From positions 1-64,000 of the IMG/VR virus record IMGVR_UViG_3300031692_000001: a DNA stretch of 64,000 bases. One strand, 5' to 3'. Origin of the DNA: a virus. Below are positions 11,043-63,987 of this stretch, one piece after another (the first letter of the stretch is position 1; every line of letters starts with the position of its first letter). The notes under the pieces are model-generated. The model was given only the letters and a program-made list of their open reading frames with translations. It made no database searches and was not told where the DNA came from. A program made the position numbers and the translations under genes.

Positions 11043-12125
11043 TTATAATCCTACAAATCCATTGATTGTAGTTTTGTTTATTGCTCCCTGTAAAGTCGCT
11101 CTGAAAGTTATTCCGGGAAGATTCCTTGCCAATTTATTTGTGGCAGAAACAGCAGATGCTAATGAAGCACTAACTGTATATCCGTTTTCTTCATCTTCTG
11201 CTCCTATAATCAGTCCCACATCGGCTGCTTCTTGAAGGGCTGCTGAAATCTGACTCACTATAGATTGAATACCCGCATCTATAAAAGGAATTTTTTCATT
11301 ATTCAAAAATGAATTAAAAACCTTTTCTTGTATTTTTGCTTCCAACCAATCTATACCTCGGATAATATCAATATATTCTCCACTTCCTACAGTTCCATAT
11401 CTTGTAACACTTACTCCGGCAATTGCTTCAAACAAATTACATTGTTTTCCAAATGCCGTGGTTCTTTGAGCTGAAGTAATTTCATAAGCAACAACTCCTT
11501 TAAGAGTTTTATATGCCCAATTGGAACTTCCCGGAGCTTTAGGGAATTGTAATCCCATCCATGCAGCCCCCATACAAGTATCAGTCGTAGCAAAATCAGC
11601 AACATCAGAATAAATAACAACGGTTCTATCATAATCTTGAGTATTAACATATTCAGCAATATCTCCGGTAGAATCTATAATATTGGCGTCATCATCAGAA
11701 ATCATAAAAAGTTTTTTATTTAACTCTGCCCAGGCTGCTACTGCTTGAAGATCAGCCAAAGTTTTATCCCCAATACAGAAACCATACCATGCGGAACTAT
11801 CTGCGGCAATTAAAGGCATTGCCTCCACCCATGTTTCTGTCCCATCTACTCCTTTAAGTTTCCTTCCAATATATACTTCTCCGGGATTAGGATTTTGACG
11901 GAAAATAGCTTGGGCCATTAAATAAACTGGATCTGCTGTTGTAAATCCGGCTGTAGCCATTTCCGTAAGTGATGTGTATCTCCTTACTCTTTCAGAAAAA
12001 ACAGGAGTAATATCAGCCATAAGAATTTCTTGAGCTAAAAGAATACCGTTAAAACTTGCAACATTCGCTGCTTGTGTCTGTCTTGTTATGGTTATATCAA
12101 CCACTTCATCTAATAATGATGACAT
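11043..12125 (-). CDS. Contractile tail sheath protein
   Basis: 360 residues of DUF3383 type (an N-terminal VVDITITRQTQAANVASFNG strand, then TPVFSERVRRYTSLTEM and, late, GIDWLEAKIQEKVFNSFLNN). This short sheath class occurs in many myoviruses. It assembles around the tube and contracts at infection. The gene is preceded by a good GAGGAGG-type site. Confidence 0.9.
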   Translation of the reverse strand: MSSLLDEVVDITITRQTQAANVASFNGILLAQEILMADITPVFSERVRRYTSLTEMATAGFTTADPVYLMAQAIFRQNPNPGEVYIGRKLKGVDGTETWVEAMPLIAADSSAWYGFCIGDKTLADLQAVAAWAELNKKLFMISDDDANIIDSTGDIAEYVNTQDYDRTVVIYSDVADFATTDTCMGAAWMGLQFPKAPGSSNWAYKTLKGVVAYEITSAQRTTAFGKQCNLFEAIAGVSVTRYGTVGSGEYIDIIRGIDWLEAKIQEKVFNSFLNNEKIPFIDAGIQSIVSQISAALQEAADVGLIIGAEDEENGYTVSASLASAVSATNKLARNLPGITFRATLQGAINKTTINGFVGL

Positions 12126-12139
12126 AAAAACCTCCTCTA

Positions 12140-12625
12140 TTATATTGGTTCATTATATGTTGGGGTATACTCTATAGTTTCAATAATTCCTACTGTCTCA
12201 TTAAAACTATAACCAAACCCCATAGTAATTTCAAATAAAAATCTTTTTTCTATTACTTCATCAATAACTGTAGAAATATCCGTGATCAATGAAGTATCTC
12301 TGATAACTATATTATTTCCTCTCATAGATTCCTGAATACTTTCTTTTTCAAAAGTTATTTTTAAATTTTGTAAATTATCTTGAGTTCCTCTCCCATAAGA
12401 AATTAAAGATACTACAAAATCTTCATGAATAGCTGATTGCCTTATTCCAGTAATTTCATTTGGAATAGTATAATCTTTTTGACCCACTTTATTAAAAGAA
12501 GTTATTTTCAATGTAAGATAATTCCCATCTGGTCTTACACCATTTTCATCTGAAAATATTACTGAAAGAGAAGTATTACCTGATATTAAAGTATACAAAT
12601 ATGCTTCTAATTCAGAATATGTCAT
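12140..12625 (-). CDS. Neck/tail terminator-like protein
   Basis: 161 residues. A helical N-terminus (YSELEAYLYTLISGNT) and a central strand region with GVRPDGNYLTLKITSF are typical of gp12-like neck terminator proteins found just before a DUF3383 sheath. It would cap the tail tube and join the neck. It overlaps the preceding gene by 4 bp. Confidence 0.65.
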   Translation of the reverse strand: MTYSELEAYLYTLISGNTSLSVIFSDENGVRPDGNYLTLKITSFNKVGQKDYTIPNEITGIRQSAIHEDFVVSLISYGRGTQDNLQNLKITFEKESIQESMRGNNIVIRDTSLITDISTVIDEVIEKRFLFEITMGFGYSFNETVGIIETIEYTPTYNEPI

Positions 12626-20001: not shown

Positions 20002-20034
20002 TGATCACCCAAAATATAAATTATTTAATAAAAT

Positions 20035-20194: not shown

Positions 20195-20869
20195 ATGAAA
20201 ATTAAAGCTAATGAGATTAAGAGTGAAACCATACAAGAAGCTATCAGAGAGATAGAAGAAAAATATGGTATTACCGGGGACAAAGCCGAGGCAATAGCCT
20301 CCCACATCGTGTATACAGATGAGGACTGGACCGATGAGGAATCGGAAGAAACAGAAAAAGAAATAGTTCCCTTAGAAAAGTTCGTGAAAATTGCAAGTGA
20401 ATTTGACAACGCGAACTATTACACAGACAAGGGCTGGACAATCCCCAATGGAACCGGTCCGAGTGATGAAGCATATGGTAAGGCACTTATGCAAGATTAT
20501 CTTGACAGTGAATATCAAACTTTGCAGGAATGGGAAAACCATCTTGACAATTCTCTCACGGAATCGAATGAATATTATGATATGTGGGAAGAATTATTCA
20601 CTGAAGGTGAAGAAGAGCCGAAAGAAGATATAAAGAAATACAGTTATACAATTGAGAAAGATGAGAACGGTTACTTTGGCAATTGTGATCAGCTTGATGG
20701 GTGTTTCGCACAAGGAAACACAAAAGAAGAATTAAGAAAAAATATGGAAGATGTAATTACTCTGCATCTCGAGGACAGAGGAATTACATCAGAGACTATT
20801 CATTTCGAAGAAATAATGTGCGACGTAGAAAGCGTTATAGTATCAGAAGGTACCATAGAAAAAAATTAA
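20195..20869 (+). CDS. Acidic protein with C-terminal HicB-like domain
   Basis: 224 residues, the only sizeable plus-strand gene. The first 145 residues are very acidic and of no known family (TDEDWTDEESEETEKE). Residues 147-195 have the HicB antitoxin-like partial RNase H pattern (YTIEKDENGYFGNCDQLDG, then GNTKEELRKNMEDVI). No HicA toxin gene is seen nearby, so this is unlikely to be a simple toxin-antitoxin pair. It could act as a repressor-like or decoy protein. AAGGAG precedes the ATG by 8 bases; it is driven by the promoter at 20106. Confidence 0.7.
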   Translation: MKIKANEIKSETIQEAIREIEEKYGITGDKAEAIASHIVYTDEDWTDEESEETEKEIVPLEKFVKIASEFDNANYYTDKGWTIPNGTGPSDEAYGKALMQDYLDSEYQTLQEWENHLDNSLTESNEYYDMWEELFTEGEEEPKEDIKKYSYTIEKDENGYFGNCDQLDGCFAQGNTKEELRKNMEDVITLHLEDRGITSETIHFEEIMCDVESVIVSEGTIEKN

Positions 20870-20879
20870 AATCCACCAT

Positions 20880-20956
20880 CCCCGGAGAGCAATAGCTAAG
20901 CTCTCCTATTTTACCCGGCCTCATTCGTTGAGTGGGGCTGAGCGAAATAAAGGAGA
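20880..20956 (+). promoter_or_regulatory. Type B structured leader (plus-strand copy)
   Basis: Hairpin I GGAGAGC/GCTCTCC (20884-20906) and hairpin II GCCTCATTC/GAGTGGGGC (20918-20938), then AAGGAG for the gene at 20963. Nearly the same element occurs on the minus strand at 29455 and 29742, where a third small hairpin follows; that part is missing here. Confidence 0.7.
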
Positions 20957-20962
20957 ATGAAT

Positions 20963-21133
20963 ATGCAGACAAAAAAGGAAATGAAAGAATACACAAATTT
21001 AGGAGTAGAAACAGGCGTGAAAATATCTAATATAGTGTATTGGTTTTTCAATGCTACCAGAATTATTGCGGCATTTAAAAAAGCCAAATCATCGGAAACC
21101 GACATAGAGCGGGACCGGAGATGTCATAGTTAA
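20963..21133 (+). CDS. Small membrane-associated protein, unknown
   Basis: 56 residues (MQTKKEMKEYTNLG...). A hydrophobic stretch IVYWFFNATRIIAAF lies mid-protein. The C-terminal ETDIERDRR is shared, at DNA level, with the protein at 63813..63947 although the rest is unrelated. Start chosen at 20963 because AAGGAG is 8 nt upstream; in-frame ATGs at 20957 and 20960 region lie too close. Confidence 0.6.
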   Translation: MQTKKEMKEYTNLGVETGVKISNIVYWFFNATRIIAAFKKAKSSETDIERDRRCHS

Positions 21134-21134
21134 T

Positions 21135-21163
21135 AACACCCAGCACCCAGGGAAAGGGTAAAG
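21135..21163 (+). promoter_or_regulatory. Type A leader repeat (plus-strand copy)
   Basis: ACACCCAGCACCCAGGG followed by AAAGGGTAAAGG and the start at 21168. It matches the repeat found ten times on the minus strand before small genes at 28 kb, 29 kb and 62-64 kb. Confidence 0.65.
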
Positions 21164-21167
21164 GAAT

Positions 21168-21347
21168 ATGAGTATGAAAATAATTAAAAAAATTAGGGGG
21201 GTGATTAATTTTATTATAGATAATATAGGACCAGAGGAATATGAAAATAGCATGGAGTGGTGTTCTAAACATGATAAGTGTTATGAAGAAGCACGTAAAG
21301 AACATAACAGAGTCCAAATCTATATAAATAGGTCCAAAAGAATATAA
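21168..21347 (+). CDS. Small basic protein, unknown
   Basis: 59 residues beginning MSMKIIKKIRGVINFIID. Two Cys (WCSKHDKC) and His could bind a metal, and the C-terminus is basic. Placed in the plus-strand cassette behind a type A leader. No family recognised. Confidence 0.55.
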   Translation: MSMKIIKKIRGVINFIIDNIGPEEYENSMEWCSKHDKCYEEARKEHNRVQIYINRSKRI

Positions 21348-27453: not shown

Positions 27454-27570
27454 TCATTTTTTACTCCTATGCCTTTTATTCTCAGGTTTCCGTCCACTCA
27501 TCGAGGAAACCAATAAACCCCCCCAAATAATCAATTCGATAACCACTATAAAAATTAAAGTTCCCTGCAT
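27454..27570 (-). CDS. Tiny single-helix membrane protein
   Basis: 38 residues: MQGTLIFIVVIELIIWGGLL is a membrane helix, followed by a basic tail ending RHRSKK. Perfect GGAGG 6 nt before the ATG. An 11-codon ATGA-coupled frame follows before the next gene. Could be a small inhibitor or anchor. Confidence 0.5.
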   Translation of the reverse strand: MQGTLIFIVVIELIIWGGLLVSSMSGRKPENKRHRSKK

Positions 27571-27621
27571 ATTCGCCTCCTATATCGAATGGCCTATATA
27601 GTTCCCCTCCCAGGGTTTTAT

Positions 27622-27870
27622 TTACGCCTTTTCCCTTGCTACCATTTCCTTCATTCTGCTTACAATTGGAGCTATATCGGCAGAAAGTTTCTCATTTATT
27701 TTTTTATGGGTTGATGCTATGTCCCCTATTCGTTTGAATATTTTCCCCATATACTTATCAATTTCTTTTCTTTTTATTGTCTCTTTCAGAATATCAGGTA
27801 GTGTACCTATTTCTTCAATTACTTCCTGCTGTATGTAATCATCTTGCTCATTCTTCACAATAGCTATCAT
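27622..27870 (-). CDS. Hypothetical helical protein
   Basis: 82 residues, all helical, charged. Overlaps the DpnD-like gene by 4 bp. No family recognised. Confidence 0.6.
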   Translation of the reverse strand: MIAIVKNEQDDYIQQEVIEEIGTLPDILKETIKRKEIDKYMGKIFKRIGDIASTHKKINEKLSADIAPIVSRMKEMVAREKA

Positions 27871-28088
27871 AATGTTTCTCCTTCTTCCCTTACCGGGCTT
27901 GTCTGATTTGAACGTTTCAGATTATCAATTTCCTCATCGATATCTGTTACACTCATAACGTCCTCTGGCTCGCAACCCCTATAGATTGCTCCACACCTTG
28001 CACTTTCTTTCGCTGATTCCAAGTTGTCCGCACCAACTATAAATGTTTCATACTTTTTTATTTCAAGTGTTACTTCGTAATGGTTCAT
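27867..28088 (-). CDS. DpnD/PcfM-like small protein
   Basis: 73 residues. YEVTLEIKKYETFIVGADNL and ESAKESARCGA give the short alpha-beta pattern of DpnD/PcfM-like proteins, with an unrelated acidic end. Function unknown. Stands behind a type A leader (28094-28160). Confidence 0.6.
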   Translation of the reverse strand: MNHYEVTLEIKKYETFIVGADNLESAKESARCGAIYRGCEPEDVMSVTDIDEEIDNLKRSNQTSPVREEGETL

Positions 28089-28093
28089 GATTT

Positions 28094-28160
28094 ACTCCTT
28101 ACCCTTAACCCTGGGCGCCGGGTAGTAAGCCGGGGAATTAAACCCCGGTAAACCGCTCTG
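28094..28160 (-). promoter_or_regulatory. Type A leader repeat, long form
   Basis: In RNA sense: AGAGCGGTTTACC, a perfect CCGGGG/CCCCGG hairpin with loop TTTAATT, then CTTACTACCCGGCG, CCCAGGGTTAAGGG and TAAGGAG before ATG 28088. CTTAC can pair with GTAAG of the ribosome binding site. About 62 bases are identical to the copy at 29098. Confidence 0.75.
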
Positions 28161-28170
28161 ACTATTCTTG

Positions 28171-29089: not shown

Positions 29090-29097
29090 ACTCACTC

Positions 29098-29163
29098 TCC
29101 TTACCCTTAACCCTGGGCGCCGGGTAGTAAGCCGGGGAATTAAACCCCGGTAAACCGCTCTAA
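29098..29163 (-). promoter_or_regulatory. Type A leader repeat, long form
   Basis: Almost identical to the element at 28094: CCGGGG/CCCCGG hairpin, then CCCAGGGTTAAGGGTAAGGAG leading to ATG 29089. Confidence 0.75.
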
Positions 29164-29448
29164 CTATATTACAGACTCATACATTTTACTGAAATCTTTC
29201 CTGGTTTTTTCTATCGATTGATTCCAATGTAACGCACAACTAATAAGTGTTTTTTCTTCTGAAATAACCTCATTAAATTTAATTCCTGCATTAATGTTAT
29301 CATCTTCTGTCCATACCGCAGATGAATTAACTCTCCACATTCTTGCATCTATTATTTGTTGTTTTTCTTTTGCAGTAAAAGACAAGCCTGTAAAAGTAAT
29401 ATCCTTTTCTACATCTTTTCTTGCTTCGTTTTCTGATAAATATCTCAT
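29164..29448 (-). CDS. Hypothetical protein
   Basis: 94 residues (MRYLSENEARKDVEK...), helical with two Trp regions (ARMWRVNSSAVWTEDD, CALHWNQS). Preceded by a type B leader and followed at once by a type A leader. Not recognised. Confidence 0.55.
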   Translation of the reverse strand: MRYLSENEARKDVEKDITFTGLSFTAKEKQQIIDARMWRVNSSAVWTEDDNINAGIKFNEVISEEKTLISCALHWNQSIEKTRKDFSKMYESVI

Positions 29449-29454
29449 AATTTC

Positions 29455-29557
29455 TCTCCTTATCTCGCTTAAAGCCCGTCGGCTATATTTCGCTCAGCCT
29501 CACACGCTGTATGAGGCCGGGTAAAATAGGAGAGCTTACGTATTGCTCTCCGGGATG
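29455..29557 (-). promoter_or_regulatory. Type B structured leader
   Basis: In RNA sense: hairpin I (29529-29551, GGAGAGC/GCTCTCC), hairpin II (29497-29517, GCCTCATAC/GTGTGAGGC with loop of three), hairpin III (AGCC-GAC-GGGCT), then AAGGAG before ATG 29448. Compared with the other copies, one base pair of hairpin II is exchanged T-A for A-T, a compensatory change. Confidence 0.8.
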
Positions 29558-29741: not shown

Positions 29742-29836
29742 CTCCTTCTCGCTTAAAGCCCGTCGGCTATATTTCGCTCAGCCCCACTCAACGAATGAGG
29801 CCGGGTAAAATAGGAGAGCTTACGTATTGCTCTCCT
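29742..29836 (-). promoter_or_regulatory. Type B structured leader
   Basis: Hairpin I at 29813-29835, hairpin II at 29781-29801 (GCCTCATTC/GAGTGGGGC), hairpin III AGCC/GGGCT, then AAGGAGAG before ATG 29735. Hairpin II here equals the plus-strand copy at 20918. Confidence 0.8.
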
Positions 29837-29842
29837 GGGTGC

Positions 29843-37140: not shown

Positions 37141-38145
37141 TTAATTTTCCTCTGATGCATCTGAACATTCATCCCAAATCTTACAAGTATCACATTCATC
37201 GTGTTTATCGCAATCTTTCCCAAATTTAAAACCTTTTGGGCATTCCTGAGATTTCCCTTTTTTCTTCTCCTCCGGTTCTTCCTTTTTACTAGATTTCTTT
37301 TTTACAAGTTCCTCTTCTTCCGGTTCATCATCATCGTCATCATCCTGTTTTTTCTTCTTCCCCACTTTTTCTTTTTTTACCGTTTTCTCTTCATCATCGT
37401 CATCATCCGGTTCTCCCAAATAAATTGCTTCAATTTCCGTATAGGTAAGAACTTCCATAATTTCATCAAAACTGATAGTATCTTCTACAATATCAACATC
37501 AAACTCCACTTCCCGGTCCTCAAACCTAAAAGATTTAAATTCCAGAAATTCCGACTTTCCCCTATTCCCCAGTATAGGTATAGAAGTCATACTTGCCCGG
37601 AAAGATATCACCTTTCCCTCTTCTATATCCGCAAAATCCAAAGTTTGCTTATCCCCGGATTCACTCCGGGCTTCTTCAATCAATTCTTTTTCAAATAGAT
37701 AATGGGAAGTTGAAAAAACCATTAAACCAGCATCAATATTTCTTTCATTAACAACATTATAAAATACTCTCCGGGATGCCTTAAGAGCTTTGGCTTCCTT
37801 CTCTTTTCCCTTATCAGCAAACTCACTGGAAGCATCACACAAAGGGCATTTTTTACCGTAATTCTTTTTCAGACAAACAACATCCTTGTCCCCAGCTCCA
37901 ACACTTCTATGAACCCAAATATCCATAACATAATCCCAATCACCAATTTCCATATCCCCTAATTTTACCAGAGGATGATTCTTAGATTTCACCACATAAG
38001 GAATAATATTGATTTTATTTTTTCCTTCTTTGGCCTTAAAAAACTTCACATCTGATTTAAAATTAAATACTCCTCCGGTATTACTCCCGGCAGTTTTCTC
38101 ACTATGAGCATATCTTTTACCTAATCCTTTTCTTTTCTTTGCCAT
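37141..38145 (-). CDS. Single-stranded DNA-binding protein (T4 gp32-like)
   Basis: 334 residues. The N-terminal part contains the OB-fold zinc pattern CLKKNYGKKCPLCDASSEF. After residue 245 come long Asp/Glu and Lys runs, then a Cys-rich end (CPKGFKFGKDCDKHDECDTC) and an acidic tip. Acidic tails bring SSB into contact with replication partners. The Cys-rich end is seen in other myovirus gp32-like proteins. Lies before the recombination genes. Confidence 0.8.
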   Translation of the reverse strand: MAKKRKGLGKRYAHSEKTAGSNTGGVFNFKSDVKFFKAKEGKNKINIIPYVVKSKNHPLVKLGDMEIGDWDYVMDIWVHRSVGAGDKDVVCLKKNYGKKCPLCDASSEFADKGKEKEAKALKASRRVFYNVVNERNIDAGLMVFSTSHYLFEKELIEEARSESGDKQTLDFADIEEGKVISFRASMTSIPILGNRGKSEFLEFKSFRFEDREVEFDVDIVEDTISFDEIMEVLTYTEIEAIYLGEPDDDDDEEKTVKKEKVGKKKKQDDDDDDEPEEEELVKKKSSKKEEPEEKKKGKSQECPKGFKFGKDCDKHDECDTCKIWDECSDASEEN

Positions 38146-61443: not shown

Positions 61444-62085
61444 TTATTTAATATCTTTAAAAATACTTTTTGCAGCCCATATGCCATTAGATGTATTTTT
61501 TCTTTGCCAAGTTCCTAAACTTGGAGTCCACCAGAAGGCATGTTGTTTCAATTTATTCCTCATATCCTCATCTGGTTTTTCATCAAAAAATATTTGGACT
61601 CTTTCCAGGGCTGTATTATTAACAATTTTTATTCCTGGTTTTTGATCAATGATATGAATAGAAAAATCACCGCTTTCAACCCGGTCCTGAATAATTTCTT
61701 TTTTCTTTATCCTATTTATTCTCTTCCTTATTTCTCCGATAATAGAATAATTACAGAGAAGTTCAAGGGCTTTATGCTCTGAATCTAATTTTTTTTGATT
61801 GCTTCTTACTGGAAAATTAGCAGATCCGGTAATCATAGTAGACATACACCTTGACTTTTTATTTAACCATTCAATATATATCTTATGATAATAGTCGAAG
61901 CATCCCTGGATTATTTCTTTATTTTCTTCATTGTATAATCCCGCATCTTTCACTGCCTGGATACTGTTATTACAATCTAATTGATAAGATTCGATAATTG
62001 AACCAGCTCTTTTTTCAGGATCAAAACTTGTCCCTATATGTGCCTGTCTTGCGGTTTCATACAGTATTTCTTTTATGTTTATCAT
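61444..62085 (-). CDS. Conserved phage/plasmid protein of unknown function
   Basis: 213 residues from ATG 62085 (CGGAGGAG upstream); an ATG at 62109 sits behind a type A repeat whose ribosome site is spoiled. STMITGSANFPVRSNQKKLD and a C-terminal FWWTPSLGTWQRKNTSNGIW recur in proteins of mobile elements and phages. I cannot assign a role. Confidence 0.6.
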   Translation of the reverse strand: MINIKEILYETARQAHIGTSFDPEKRAGSIIESYQLDCNNSIQAVKDAGLYNEENKEIIQGCFDYYHKIYIEWLNKKSRCMSTMITGSANFPVRSNQKKLDSEHKALELLCNYSIIGEIRKRINRIKKKEIIQDRVESGDFSIHIIDQKPGIKIVNNTALERVQIFFDEKPDEDMRNKLKQHAFWWTPSLGTWQRKNTSNGIWAAKSIFKDIK

Positions 62086-62107
62086 ATTCTTTTTCTCTCC
62101 TCCGGTC

Positions 62108-62182
62108 ATTCTATTTTCCCTTAACCCTGGGCGCTAGGTAGTAATACAACCAGCCGGGGAATTAAACCCCAGTGGACCGTGC
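62108..62182 (-). promoter_or_regulatory. Type A leader repeat, long form with decayed ribosome site
   Basis: GGGG TTTAATT CCCC hairpin, then GCGCCCAGGGTTAAGGG, but AAAATAG instead of TAAGGAG. The stop TAA of the gene at 62162 lies in the hairpin loop. Confidence 0.65.
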
Positions 62183-62320
62183 TGACTCTTCTGATTCTTC
62201 GTCTTCGTCGAGATGCACAGTATCATACTGCTCTTCATAGCAATAGTTGCATAGAATTCCATAGTCATCACCACGGAATTTTGCATCGCCTTTTTCTCCC
62301 CCACATGTTTCACATATCAT
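62162..62320 (-). CDS. Small zinc-ribbon protein
   Basis: 52 residues: MICETCGGEKGDAKF, GILCNYCYEEQYD, then an acidic tail ending in RSTGV coded by the repeat. AAGGAG from a type A leader precedes the ATG. Confidence 0.65.
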   Translation of the reverse strand: MICETCGGEKGDAKFRGDDYGILCNYCYEEQYDTVHLDEDEESEESARSTGV

Positions 62321-62328
62321 TACTTATT

Positions 62329-62360
62329 CTCCTTACCCTTAACCCTGGGCGCTGGGTATT
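62329..62360 (-). promoter_or_regulatory. Type A leader repeat, short form
   Basis: ATACCCAGCGCCCAGGG, TTAAGGGTAAGGAG before ATG 62320. Confidence 0.65.
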
Positions 62361-62365
62361 ATGTT

Positions 62366-62650
62366 TTAATGGCCATAGCCTTTTTCTCCAAATTCAGGTC
62401 TTAAATTAATTATAGCATTTTTACATCTGAATAATTTCTTATCGTCGTGGAAATAGTGCAATTTTCCACTTCTTATGTTAACACAATTATAAACTTGACT
62501 TTTCTTTTTCCCCAAGGGAATTTCTACGGTTTCAATTTTCATGAAAGTTTCCACGGATGTCTTGAAATCTTCAATTTCAAATATTTCGCAAATATTTAAT
62601 TCCCCAAAATAATCACAAACTGTATACCAGAATTCATTTATAATTTTCAT
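62366..62650 (-). CDS. Hypothetical protein
   Basis: 94 residues, alpha-beta (EFWYTVCDYFGELNICEIFE, GKLHYFHDDKKLFRCKNAII). GAGGAG of a type A leader lies 8 bases before the ATG. Unknown. Confidence 0.55.
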   Translation of the reverse strand: MKIINEFWYTVCDYFGELNICEIFEIEDFKTSVETFMKIETVEIPLGKKKSQVYNCVNIRSGKLHYFHDDKKLFRCKNAIINLRPEFGEKGYGH

Positions 62651-62659
62651 GCTTTATCT

Positions 62660-62694
62660 CTCCTCTACCCTTAACCCTGGGTGCCGGGTGTTAT
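62660..62694 (-). promoter_or_regulatory. Type A leader repeat
   Basis: ACACCCGGCACCCAGGG, TTAAGGGTAGAGGAG. The TAA in the repeat is the stop of the gene at 62671, and the GAGGAG serves ATG 62650. Confidence 0.65.
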
Positions 62695-62850
62695 TTTATT
62701 TGCACATTTAGGGCATAAATCTTTATTTTTTTTTCTTATCCAGCCTTTTTTCTTTGCGTTTTTTATTGTTTCAATCATATTATGTCCTGTCATGTCTTCT
62801 GTCCATTCTGAACAATTATCGCACCATATTGTATATGTTTTATTTATCAT
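62671..62850 (-). CDS. Small zinc protein with repeat-coded tail
   Basis: 59 residues: INKTYTIWCDNCSEWTEDM, then helices and LCPKCANK; ends TPGTQG coded by the type A repeat. Two CxxC pairs suggest a zinc ribbon. Confidence 0.6.
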   Translation of the reverse strand: MINKTYTIWCDNCSEWTEDMTGHNMIETIKNAKKKGWIRKKNKDLCPKCANKITPGTQG

Positions 62851-62863
62851 TTCAGCCTTTACT

Positions 62864-62896
62864 CTCCTTGCCCTTAACCCTGGGTGGTGGGTGTTT
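62864..62896 (-). promoter_or_regulatory. Type A leader repeat
   Basis: ACACCCACCACCCAGGG, TTAAGGGCAAGGAG; stop of the gene at 62874 is the TAA of the repeat. Confidence 0.65.
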
Positions 62897-63110
62897 CTTC
62901 ATCACGAAAAGCATATAATACACCCTGTAAAAATCCAAGAATAAATAAAAAATCATCACTTTGCATGATATGTGTTTGCCCGCAAAAAATATCATAATTA
63001 GGTCCGGAATTTACTTTTTCAACATAAAAGTATTTTCCGGTTTCTCTCCCTATCGTAATACAAATATTTTCTGCTCGAACTAAAAATTGCTCTTTTGTTA
63101 GTTCTCTCAT
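62874..63110 (-). CDS. Hypothetical protein with repeat-coded tail
   Basis: 78 residues from ATG 63110 (AAGGAG, 7 bases). ELTKEQFLVRAENICITIGR, GQTHIMQSDDFLFILGFLQG and the tail DEETPTTQG, the last part from the type A repeat; the gene at 63371 has the same EETPTTQG. Unknown. Confidence 0.6.
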   Translation of the reverse strand: MRELTKEQFLVRAENICITIGRETGKYFYVEKVNSGPNYDIFCGQTHIMQSDDFLFILGFLQGVLYAFRDEETPTTQG

Positions 63111-63116
63111 ACTCAC

Positions 63117-63190
63117 TCTCCTTACCCTTAACCCTGGGCGCTGGGTAATACAGCCAGCCGGGGAATTAAACCCCGGCGAACCGCTCTGAC
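63117..63190 (-). promoter_or_regulatory. Type A leader repeat, long form
   Basis: AGAGCGGTTCGCC, CCGGGG/CCCCGG hairpin, CCCAGCGCCCAGGG, TTAAGGGTAAGGAG before ATG 63110. Confidence 0.7.
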
Positions 63191-63387
63191 TATTCTGATT
63201 CTCCCTCTCCTTCTGATTCTCGTATTTCCTGCATTTTTTCGTATTCAAATAATACAATATTTTTCCTACACATATCTAAAGCTTCTTTTTTATCTTTCCC
63301 ATCTCCGGTAATTCCTGATGAAATATGAGTACATTGAATGAAATTGGGGTATGGGAAATTATTGATCGATTTATATTTGTATTTCAT
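63190..63387 (-). CDS. Hypothetical protein
   Basis: 65 residues: YKYKSINNFPYPNFIQ, ISSGITGDGKDKKEALDMCR, then an acidic tail. The start follows GAGGAGAGG from a type A leader and overlaps the upstream gene. Unknown. Confidence 0.55.
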   Translation of the reverse strand: MKYKYKSINNFPYPNFIQCTHISSGITGDGKDKKEALDMCRKNIVLFEYEKMQEIRESEGEGESE

Positions 63388-63586
63388 GCTTTATCTCTCC
63401 TCTCCTCTGCCCTTGACCCTGGGTGGTGGGTGTTTCTTCCCTATCTATATTGAGATAGATCTCAAATTTTGAATCGTTTCCGCAATCATCACAACCTATA
63501 ATTGCAATATCAGATAATCTTACGGACCCAGTTTTAAGTAATCGTTTAATTTCTTTTTCTGTTATATCTAAGTTATAAGCTTCCAT
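63371..63586 (-). CDS. Hypothetical protein extended through a repeat
   Basis: 71 residues. EITEKE-like helical start (LDITEKEIKRLLKTGSVRLS), then IIGCDDCGNDSKFEIYLNID. The type A repeat is in frame and its TAA has become CAA, so the chain runs on after EETPTTQG for 14 residues into the next gene start. Confidence 0.55.
   Translation of the reverse strand: MEAYNLDITEKEIKRLLKTGSVRLSDIAIIGCDDCGNDSKFEIYLNIDREETPTTQGQGQRRGEIKHEIQI
63402..63434 (-). promoter_or_regulatory. Type A leader repeat inside a coding region
   Basis: ACACCCACCACCCAGGG, TCAAGGGCAGAGGAG. Here the stop triplet is altered, and the repeat is both coding (63371 gene) and leader (for 63387). Confidence 0.65.
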
Positions 63587-63593
63587 GCTTCAC

Positions 63594-63626
63594 TCTCCTC
63601 TACCCTACCCTGGGCGCTGGGTAATA
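63594..63626 (-). promoter_or_regulatory. Type A leader repeat, short form
   Basis: TACCCAGCGCCCAGGG, TAGGGTAGAGGAG before ATG 63586; TTAAGGG is shortened. Confidence 0.6.
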
Positions 63627-63636
63627 TCTTATTATA

Positions 63637-63792
63637 TTAAAAACTATTAGGACCGTATTCCAATATATAATTAACTCCCTTTTCCTTGAACAGTTCTATT
63701 TCTTCGTACATTTCTTCACATGGTTCACATATTTTTTTATCATTTCCCATAGGAGCTACTTCTCCACATTCTTCACATTTAGCATATTTCAT
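63637..63792 (-). CDS. Small zinc-ribbon protein
   Basis: 51 residues: MKYAKCEECGEVAPMG, KKICEPCEEMYEEIE, with two CxxC pairs 17 residues apart, then helices. AAGGAG 6 bases before the ATG, without a type A repeat. Confidence 0.65.
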   Translation of the reverse strand: MKYAKCEECGEVAPMGNDKKICEPCEEMYEEIELFKEKGVNYILEYGPNSF

Positions 63793-63812
63793 GATTCTCT
63801 CCTTACAAATTA

Positions 63813-63947
63813 TTATGAAAATCTCCGGTCCCGCTCTATGTCGGTTTCCGGCGACTGTTTTTCTTGTTTTGGAATATATACGAAAAATAGAAAATACAAT
63901 CTATTATCACTTTCTATTTTTTCAAGTTCGGTCATTCTTGTCTTCAT
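63813..63947 (-). CDS. Small protein with shared C-terminal tail
   Basis: 44 residues: KTRMTELEKIESDNRLYFLF, then a tail PETDIERDRR also found at the end of the plus-strand protein at 20963. The shared DNA spans about 28 bp. Unknown. Confidence 0.55.
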   Translation of the reverse strand: MKTRMTELEKIESDNRLYFLFFVYIPKQEKQSPETDIERDRRFS

Positions 63948-63954
63948 AGCTCTC

Positions 63955-63987
63955 TCCTTACCCTTAAACCTGGGTGGTGGGTTTCAT
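63955..63987 (-). promoter_or_regulatory. Type A leader repeat
   Basis: AACCCACCACCCAGG, TTTAAGGGTAAGGAG before ATG 63947. The gene that should end just to its right is cut by the window edge. Confidence 0.6.

Follow-up and report, generated by a model that had tools for sequence, protein, structure and literature searches.

The window analysed here is a 64,000-nucleotide stretch of DNA that makes up nearly the whole of a 64,357-base virus record (IMGVR_UViG_3300031692_000001; G000). It encodes portal, tape-measure and baseplate proteins, a DNA polymerase and a DnaB-type helicase, and its kinship to cultured phages is only distant, with a portal protein 30 to 34% identical to those of known phages. 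An earlier note, made from the letters alone, had listed 11 copies of a repeated linker, called type A, ahead of small genes. All 11 are present (Table 1), with covariance-model scores of 34 to 53 bits against noise at about 15 bits, and the central idea, that small genes are preceded by a recurring leader module containing a stop and a ribosome site, is supported. The exact 14-mer occurs seven times in the window and twice more at one mismatch, every time on the minus strand. A relaxed search of the window returned 11 matches against a shuffled mean of 2.9 and a tighter one returned 12 against 0.55, counts that were reached by 0 shuffles in either case. Two divergent copies, at 63593 (CCCAGGGTAGGG; 34.6 bits) and at 21135 on the plus strand (CCCAGGGAAAGGG; 34.3 bits), are supported by the covariance model, and a further degenerate copy, the 12th, is found at 64212, a little past the window end. 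The SD that had been placed behind the core is borne out as a repeated arrangement but not at 62108, whose SD (GGAGGAG) comes about 15 nt later.

Table 1. Type A copies and mini tRNA-like modules in the 64,000-nt window, with scores under covariance model R1.
Feature	Position	Strand	Description	R1 (bits)
Type A copy	63951..63985	-	pseudoknot and SD, then 44-aa ORF (ATG 63947)	42.6
Type A copy	63593..63625	-	loop 3 is a single A; precedes ORF 63371-63586	34.6
Type A copy	63400..63434	-	GGGUCAA, loop 3 without stop; precedes ORF 63190-63387	40.7
Long-form mini tRNA-like module	63152..63191	-	AGUCAG / CUGGCU and T-arm CGGGG-UUUAAUU-CCCCG	
Type A copy	63115..63149	-	precedes 78-aa ORF, ATG 63110	51.8
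Type A copy	62861..62895	-	overlaps upstream ORF end (...TPTTQG*, loop 3 UAA)	48.0
Type A copy	62658..62692	-	precedes ORF 62366-62650; upstream ORF stops in loop 3	47.5
Type A copy	62326..62360	-	precedes 52-aa zinc-ribbon-like ORF (ATG 62320)	52.6
Mini tRNA-like module	62148..62187	-	AGUCAG / CUGGUU and UGGGG-UUUAAUU-CCCCG	
Type A copy	62108..62142	-	no adjacent SD; precedes ORF 61444-62109	43.8
Mini tRNA-like module	29126..29165	-	AGUUAG / CUUACU, one mismatch	
Type A copy	29094..29128	-	precedes ORF with ATG 29089	51.2
Mini tRNA-like module	28124..28163	-	AGUCAG / CUUACU, one mismatch	
Type A copy	28092..28126	-	precedes ORF 27867-28088	48.4
Divergent type A copy	21135..21168	+	GGGAAAGGG; precedes 59-aa ORF	34.3

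By comparison of its copies, the core is a 23-nt H-type pseudoknot rather than a hairpin, with the consensus ACCY/UGCU - NNC - NCCC - A - GGGU/GGCA - NAA - GGGN'. Strand 1 pairs with strand 3 to form stem 1 (ACCC/GGGU) and strand 2 with strand 4 to form stem 2 (NCCC/GGGN'); both stems have 4 bp, and loops 1 (NNC), 2 (A) and 3 (NAA) measure 3, 1 and 3 nt. In alignment A1, whose 42 aligned copies were used to build covariance model R1, 97.0% of the stem cells are paired, compared with 87.5% in shuffled sequences and at most 60% in slid registers, and compensatory changes are found on both sides of both helices. The closing pair of stem 2 is CG in 16 copies, GU in nine, AU in five, GC in five and UA in one, and is unpaired in the other six (two A-C, two G-A, A-G and C-A). 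This variation was not selected by the search, because none of the search patterns constrained the closing pair. Stem 1 takes the form UGCU/GGCA, a double change to UA and GC, in two lineages, G003 and contig L140, the latter recovered by a search with stem 1 left free; ten copies carry C to U at the inner stem-1 pair, maintaining a wobble with G, and the copy at 63951..63985 (minus strand) has stem 1 in the register AACC/GGUU. Three of the four stem-2 pairs are without variation, and therefore the sequence itself also appears to be constrained; one stem-1 pair is likewise without variation, and the alignment has thirteen invariant columns in all. When stem 2 was freed and stem 1 fixed, no alternative stem 2 was prominent among the SD-linked matches, and stem-2 CCC/GGG therefore looks invariant; with stem 1 freed and stem 2 fixed, UGCU/GGCA was the sole new form.

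We rejected a nested hairpin in which ACCC pairs with the last GGGN' (S1a-S2b), as it accounts for 83% of cells versus 97% for the pseudoknot; its outer pair is broken in 23 of the 42 sequences. Energy rules favour the knot over nested folds in nine of 42 copies at a penalty of 9.6 kcal/mol and in 39 of 42 at 7, and energies by themselves do not settle the choice between them. A universal hairpin 5' of the knot was also considered and set aside after a mixed result (mean z -1.0). Other pseudoknots of the same geometry show a small excess ahead of SD sites (6 versus 1.5 at a score of at least 21). A different candidate pseudoknot, CGGA-C-CCGG-UCCG-AAGU-CCGG, for which a plain hairpin is also possible, stands before an SD at 20856 and 23493 of G005 and at 20003 of G007.

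Searching IMG/VR with the exact 14-mer and with degenerate forms recovered the arrangement of core, SD and ATG in many further viral contigs. The covariance-model search that had been proposed as a check showed the element to be present in other phages, where compensatory changes occur: R1 gave 56 matches at 28 to 53 bits, a number that includes a few duplicates as well as L080, which is probably a chance match, followed by a degenerate copy at 20.7 bits and then noise at 15 bits or less. L187, L188 and L253 were discarded along with L080, all four resembling chance or coding matches. Counting near-identical contigs once, the element is present in about 31 distinct viral contigs ranging from 31 to 60% G+C, a sample in which many contigs are fragments and copies inside one genome are not independent. 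A genome may hold up to 12 copies: G000 has 11 in the window and the degenerate one beyond it, G003 has six, and G004, G006 and G007 have three each. Among 50,697 records of cultured phages we found no convincing copy, and bacterial genomes, scanned with the UUAA form only, gave one exact match, on a MAG contig with phage-like genes; a phylum search around that MAG, covering six genomes, added nothing. Rfam at gathering score had no match to the element in the window, and at eight further loci its matches fell only away from the element.

Fifty-four copies were examined for what follows them, and in all 53 that were usable an ATG lies 7 to 22 nt past stem 2 (median 14). The downstream ORFs have a median length of 73 aa, as called by a start picker biased toward ATG and long ORFs, and are mostly non-homologous; the downstream proteins tested matched no Pfam family, and nothing in them pointed to the common regulon of host-takeover genes that the note had raised as a possibility. 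Some upstream ORFs enter the element and stop at the loop 3 UAA (...TQG*, ...PQG*), while others stop just before it. ORFs at 63820-63850 (minus strand) and 21093-21122 (plus strand) have different N-terminal parts and a common C-terminal tail, ETDIERDRR, that forms a module-like junction; the 21093 copy and G004 are identical over 30 bases.

What the comparison brings out is a conserved fold, a fixed place before the SD and ATG, spread over unrelated phages and a coincidence with cassette boundaries; the direction of any effect, any factor involved and the mechanism of recombination are inferred. We put at about even the chance that the element is an H-type mRNA pseudoknot that small accessory genes of phages carry as a portable 5' leader. 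The knot usually ends a few nucleotides 5' of the SD and should therefore occupy the mRNA-exit side of the initiating 30S subunit, where, most likely, it would determine in cis how translation of each cistron begins. The invariant CCCAGG...AAGGG face may be recognised by a host or phage factor. Were a protein or small ligand to bind the knot and thereby repress or activate a regulon of small genes, the element would be a translational operator or tiny riboswitch, and recognition of a specific sequence, as happens at the T4 gene 32 operator (PMC3014915), is suggested by the thirteen columns that stay invariant across very different phages. However, a search for a shared trans-acting phage gene found no protein family common to more than six of the 28 compared contigs, and the nested alternative conformation is not conserved, so that we regard an operator as improbable.

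The knot also has a second context. In twelve contigs (L014, L015, L021, L022, L031, L033, L035, L039, L044, L047, L049 and L053) it lies in a 3' UTR before an intrinsic terminator, with no SD or start behind it, and the gene upstream is the one following a capsid-type gene; the capsid gene of L022 is distantly related to major capsid proteins. The knot is the best-conserved block of this 3' UTR, and in its loop 1 (NNC) the two free positions are exactly those that vary. L250 and L252 have a hairpin, the knot and a terminator-like stem, preceded in L252 (3298-3567, minus strand) by a type II hammerhead ribozyme (40.9 bits in Rfam) and a mini tRNA-like structure. As it also stands ahead of terminators, the knot is not exclusively a ribosome-site switch. 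This context is unexpected under a pure ribosome-site model, and for that reason we hold our confidence in the leader explanation at about even.

The note had also described a long form with a CCGGGG/CCCCGG hairpin, which we find in four of the 11 copies. In the alignment of these modules (A2), the hairpin is a T-arm whose loop is a T-loop of the form UUYRANN; it stacks on an acceptor-like stem of 6 bp, and 8 to 10 nt take the place of the D and anticodon arms. ARAGORN found no intact tRNA in the window. Like the module, mascRNA-type structures (RF01684) and DUF3800-VI RNA (RF02915) have an acceptor-like stem stacked on a T-arm, but Rfam scores for the module at 63152..63191 (minus strand) are low, at 20.0 bits for mascRNA and 21.0 for DUF3800-VI, below the respective gathering cut-offs of 42.5 and 35, and it has no room for an anticodon arm. 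Covariation among the closest seven modules is modest, with one double change. The modules stand directly 5' of the knot in G000, G001, G003 and G005 and are absent from several copies; related modules with other stems precede small genes, with or without the pseudoknot, in G001, G003, G005, G006, G007 and G008. The long form is best regarded as a module in its own right that can be combined with others. The CTTAC that was to pair with the ribosome site GTAAG and switch translation is carried by the long forms at 28094 and 29098, the other two reading CTGGCTGTATTAC and CTGGTTGTATTAC; found in two of the 11 copies, a nearly identical pair, this switch is not conserved. Minimal tRNA-like structures of an acceptor-like stem and T-arm, too compact for full D and anticodon arms, were also seen in L222, L231, L237, L241 and L245. 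L254, which has two type A elements, also carries a DUF3800-I RNA (RF02969; 2491-2597, minus strand; 96 bits).

These modules bear on another explanation, that the element controls mRNA ends or decay at cistron boundaries. The knot would then stall exonucleases or mark processed ends, protecting the preceding or the following cistron, and the tRNA-like modules would be RNase P/Z-type cleavage sites. The knots before terminators downstream of capsid genes are in keeping with such a role, as are the modules directly 5' of the knot in the four genomes named above and the hammerhead, tRNA-like module and knot that follow one another in L252. Against it, members of the small-gene class keep a tight spacing to the downstream start and a variable one to the upstream stop, and the module is missing from several copies. 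We consider control of decay possible, though on the unlikely side.

Small genes behind the leader are shared singly between phages. G000 has almost no backbone in common with G004, G005 or G007, and yet single small genes are 89 to 98% identical. Blocks shared by the window between 61.9 and 63.7 kb and these three contigs end 0 to 28 nt from an element, and the gene order of the cassettes differs between contigs. Sibling G002, about 93 to 97% identical to the window, carries a single element at the place occupied in the window by an element, the zinc-ribbon-like gene, a tRNA-like module and a second element; the copies at 62326..62360 and 62108..62142 (both minus strand) form the 5' and 3' sides of the missing cassette, and by sequence the junction copy in G002 combines the 5' half of one with the 3' half of the other. 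Leaders are exchanged too: the gene at 63110 has a type A leader in the window and a AAATAAAACCCTGGGAGGGG... leader in G004; for the gene at 27558 the arrangement is reversed. This third leader family (AAATAAAACCCTGGGAGGGGAACTATATAGGCC...), which trades places with type A, was seen at 27558-27640 (minus strand) of the window and at 12080-12165 of G004. A second leader family is a 95-nt repeat that contains two hairpins and precedes an SD and small genes; it occurs in the window at 29463-29557 and 29747-29841 (minus strand) and at 20880-20970 (plus strand); in L082 its 5' part is fused directly to a type A pseudoknot.

Because it is nearly identical from gene to gene, the leader could also act as a seam along which recombination joins, removes and exchanges gene cassettes. 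Taken further, the repeat might be kept mainly as DNA for cassette recombination, the ribosome site being merely carried along. The coincidence of cassette ends with the element and the G002 junction, consistent with a chimera of the flanking window copies, fit this account. Homologous recombination alone, however, does not need covarying pairs and G-U wobble, the identical sequence is found in phages without a common cassette and of 31 to 60% G+C, and many contigs, though often fragments, hold a single copy. We therefore think a mainly DNA role quite improbable. The permuted cassettes could also recall attC sites of the integron kind, mobilised by a site-specific recombinase, but the element departs from the GTTRRRY core, having GTTAAGG, GTAAAGG or GTGAAGG instead, and on inspection the short copies have no upstream RYYYAAC partner, which makes attC sites very unlikely indeed.

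Returning to the portable leader, we advance more tentatively the broader idea that the element is an undescribed autonomous phage RNA device: a 23-nt knot, interchangeable at the starts and ends of mRNAs and assembled with mini tRNA-like processing modules to give swappable leaders, by which unrelated phages might exchange single ready-to-express small genes. Phages have many small accessory genes of obscure function and fast turnover. A structured leader travelling with such genes would explain how new genes arrive already expressible, and a shared leader offers a handle for finding them. As the pseudoknot is repeated across many phages and has a second use at terminators, its function is directly testable with a reporter.

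We compared the element with known systems drawn from the open-licence literature. SAS/ESAS is the nearest in layout, the T4 gene 32 operator in fold and PeSL in shuffling role. PeSL consists of an early promoter and a stem-loop terminator. The PeSL cassettes of T4-like phages were reportedly described by Arbiol in 2010 and Comeau in 2014. Unlike PeSL, the type A element sits at the ribosome site; a promoter consensus scan, the consensus covering certain promoter types, found promoter-like sites in the region and none across the knot on the coding strand. PeSL cassettes of T4-like phages are described as repeated intergenic regulatory elements mediating gene shuffling (PMC4503421).

The gene 32 operator of T4, T2 and RB69 is a pseudoknot in a phage mRNA leader that is bound by gp32, the single-strand binding protein of the phage, and it forms one site, 67 nt 5' of the start codon; a 2010 review called it possibly the sole viral example of a pseudoknot in translational autoregulation (PMC3014915). 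Type A differs in having up to 12 copies that adjoin the SD, a different sequence and many unrelated small genes behind it, and we found no type A copy before the SSB-like gene of the window (37141-38145). In Cluster K mycobacteriophages and Cluster EF Microbacterium phages, SAS/ESAS is a short conserved repeat over the SD of about 10 to 19 genes per genome, which are non-structural and mostly in one orientation; about half of the Cluster K repeats have an extra upstream inverted repeat (PMC3203893, PMC7302621). SAS itself is 13 bp (GGGATAGGAGCCC) with the SD inside, and RNA hairpins from the ESAS inverted repeats are, according to the authors, little supported (PMC3203893, PMC7302621). The type A element likewise lies a few nucleotides from the starts of small genes, at the ATG distances and ORF lengths given above. 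Unlike SAS (GGG-N7-CCC), it is 23 nt long, upstream of the SD and has no CCC after the SD, and three features set it apart from both SAS and ESAS: a predicted fold as a covarying pseudoknot, a range over unrelated phages and a further occurrence before terminators.
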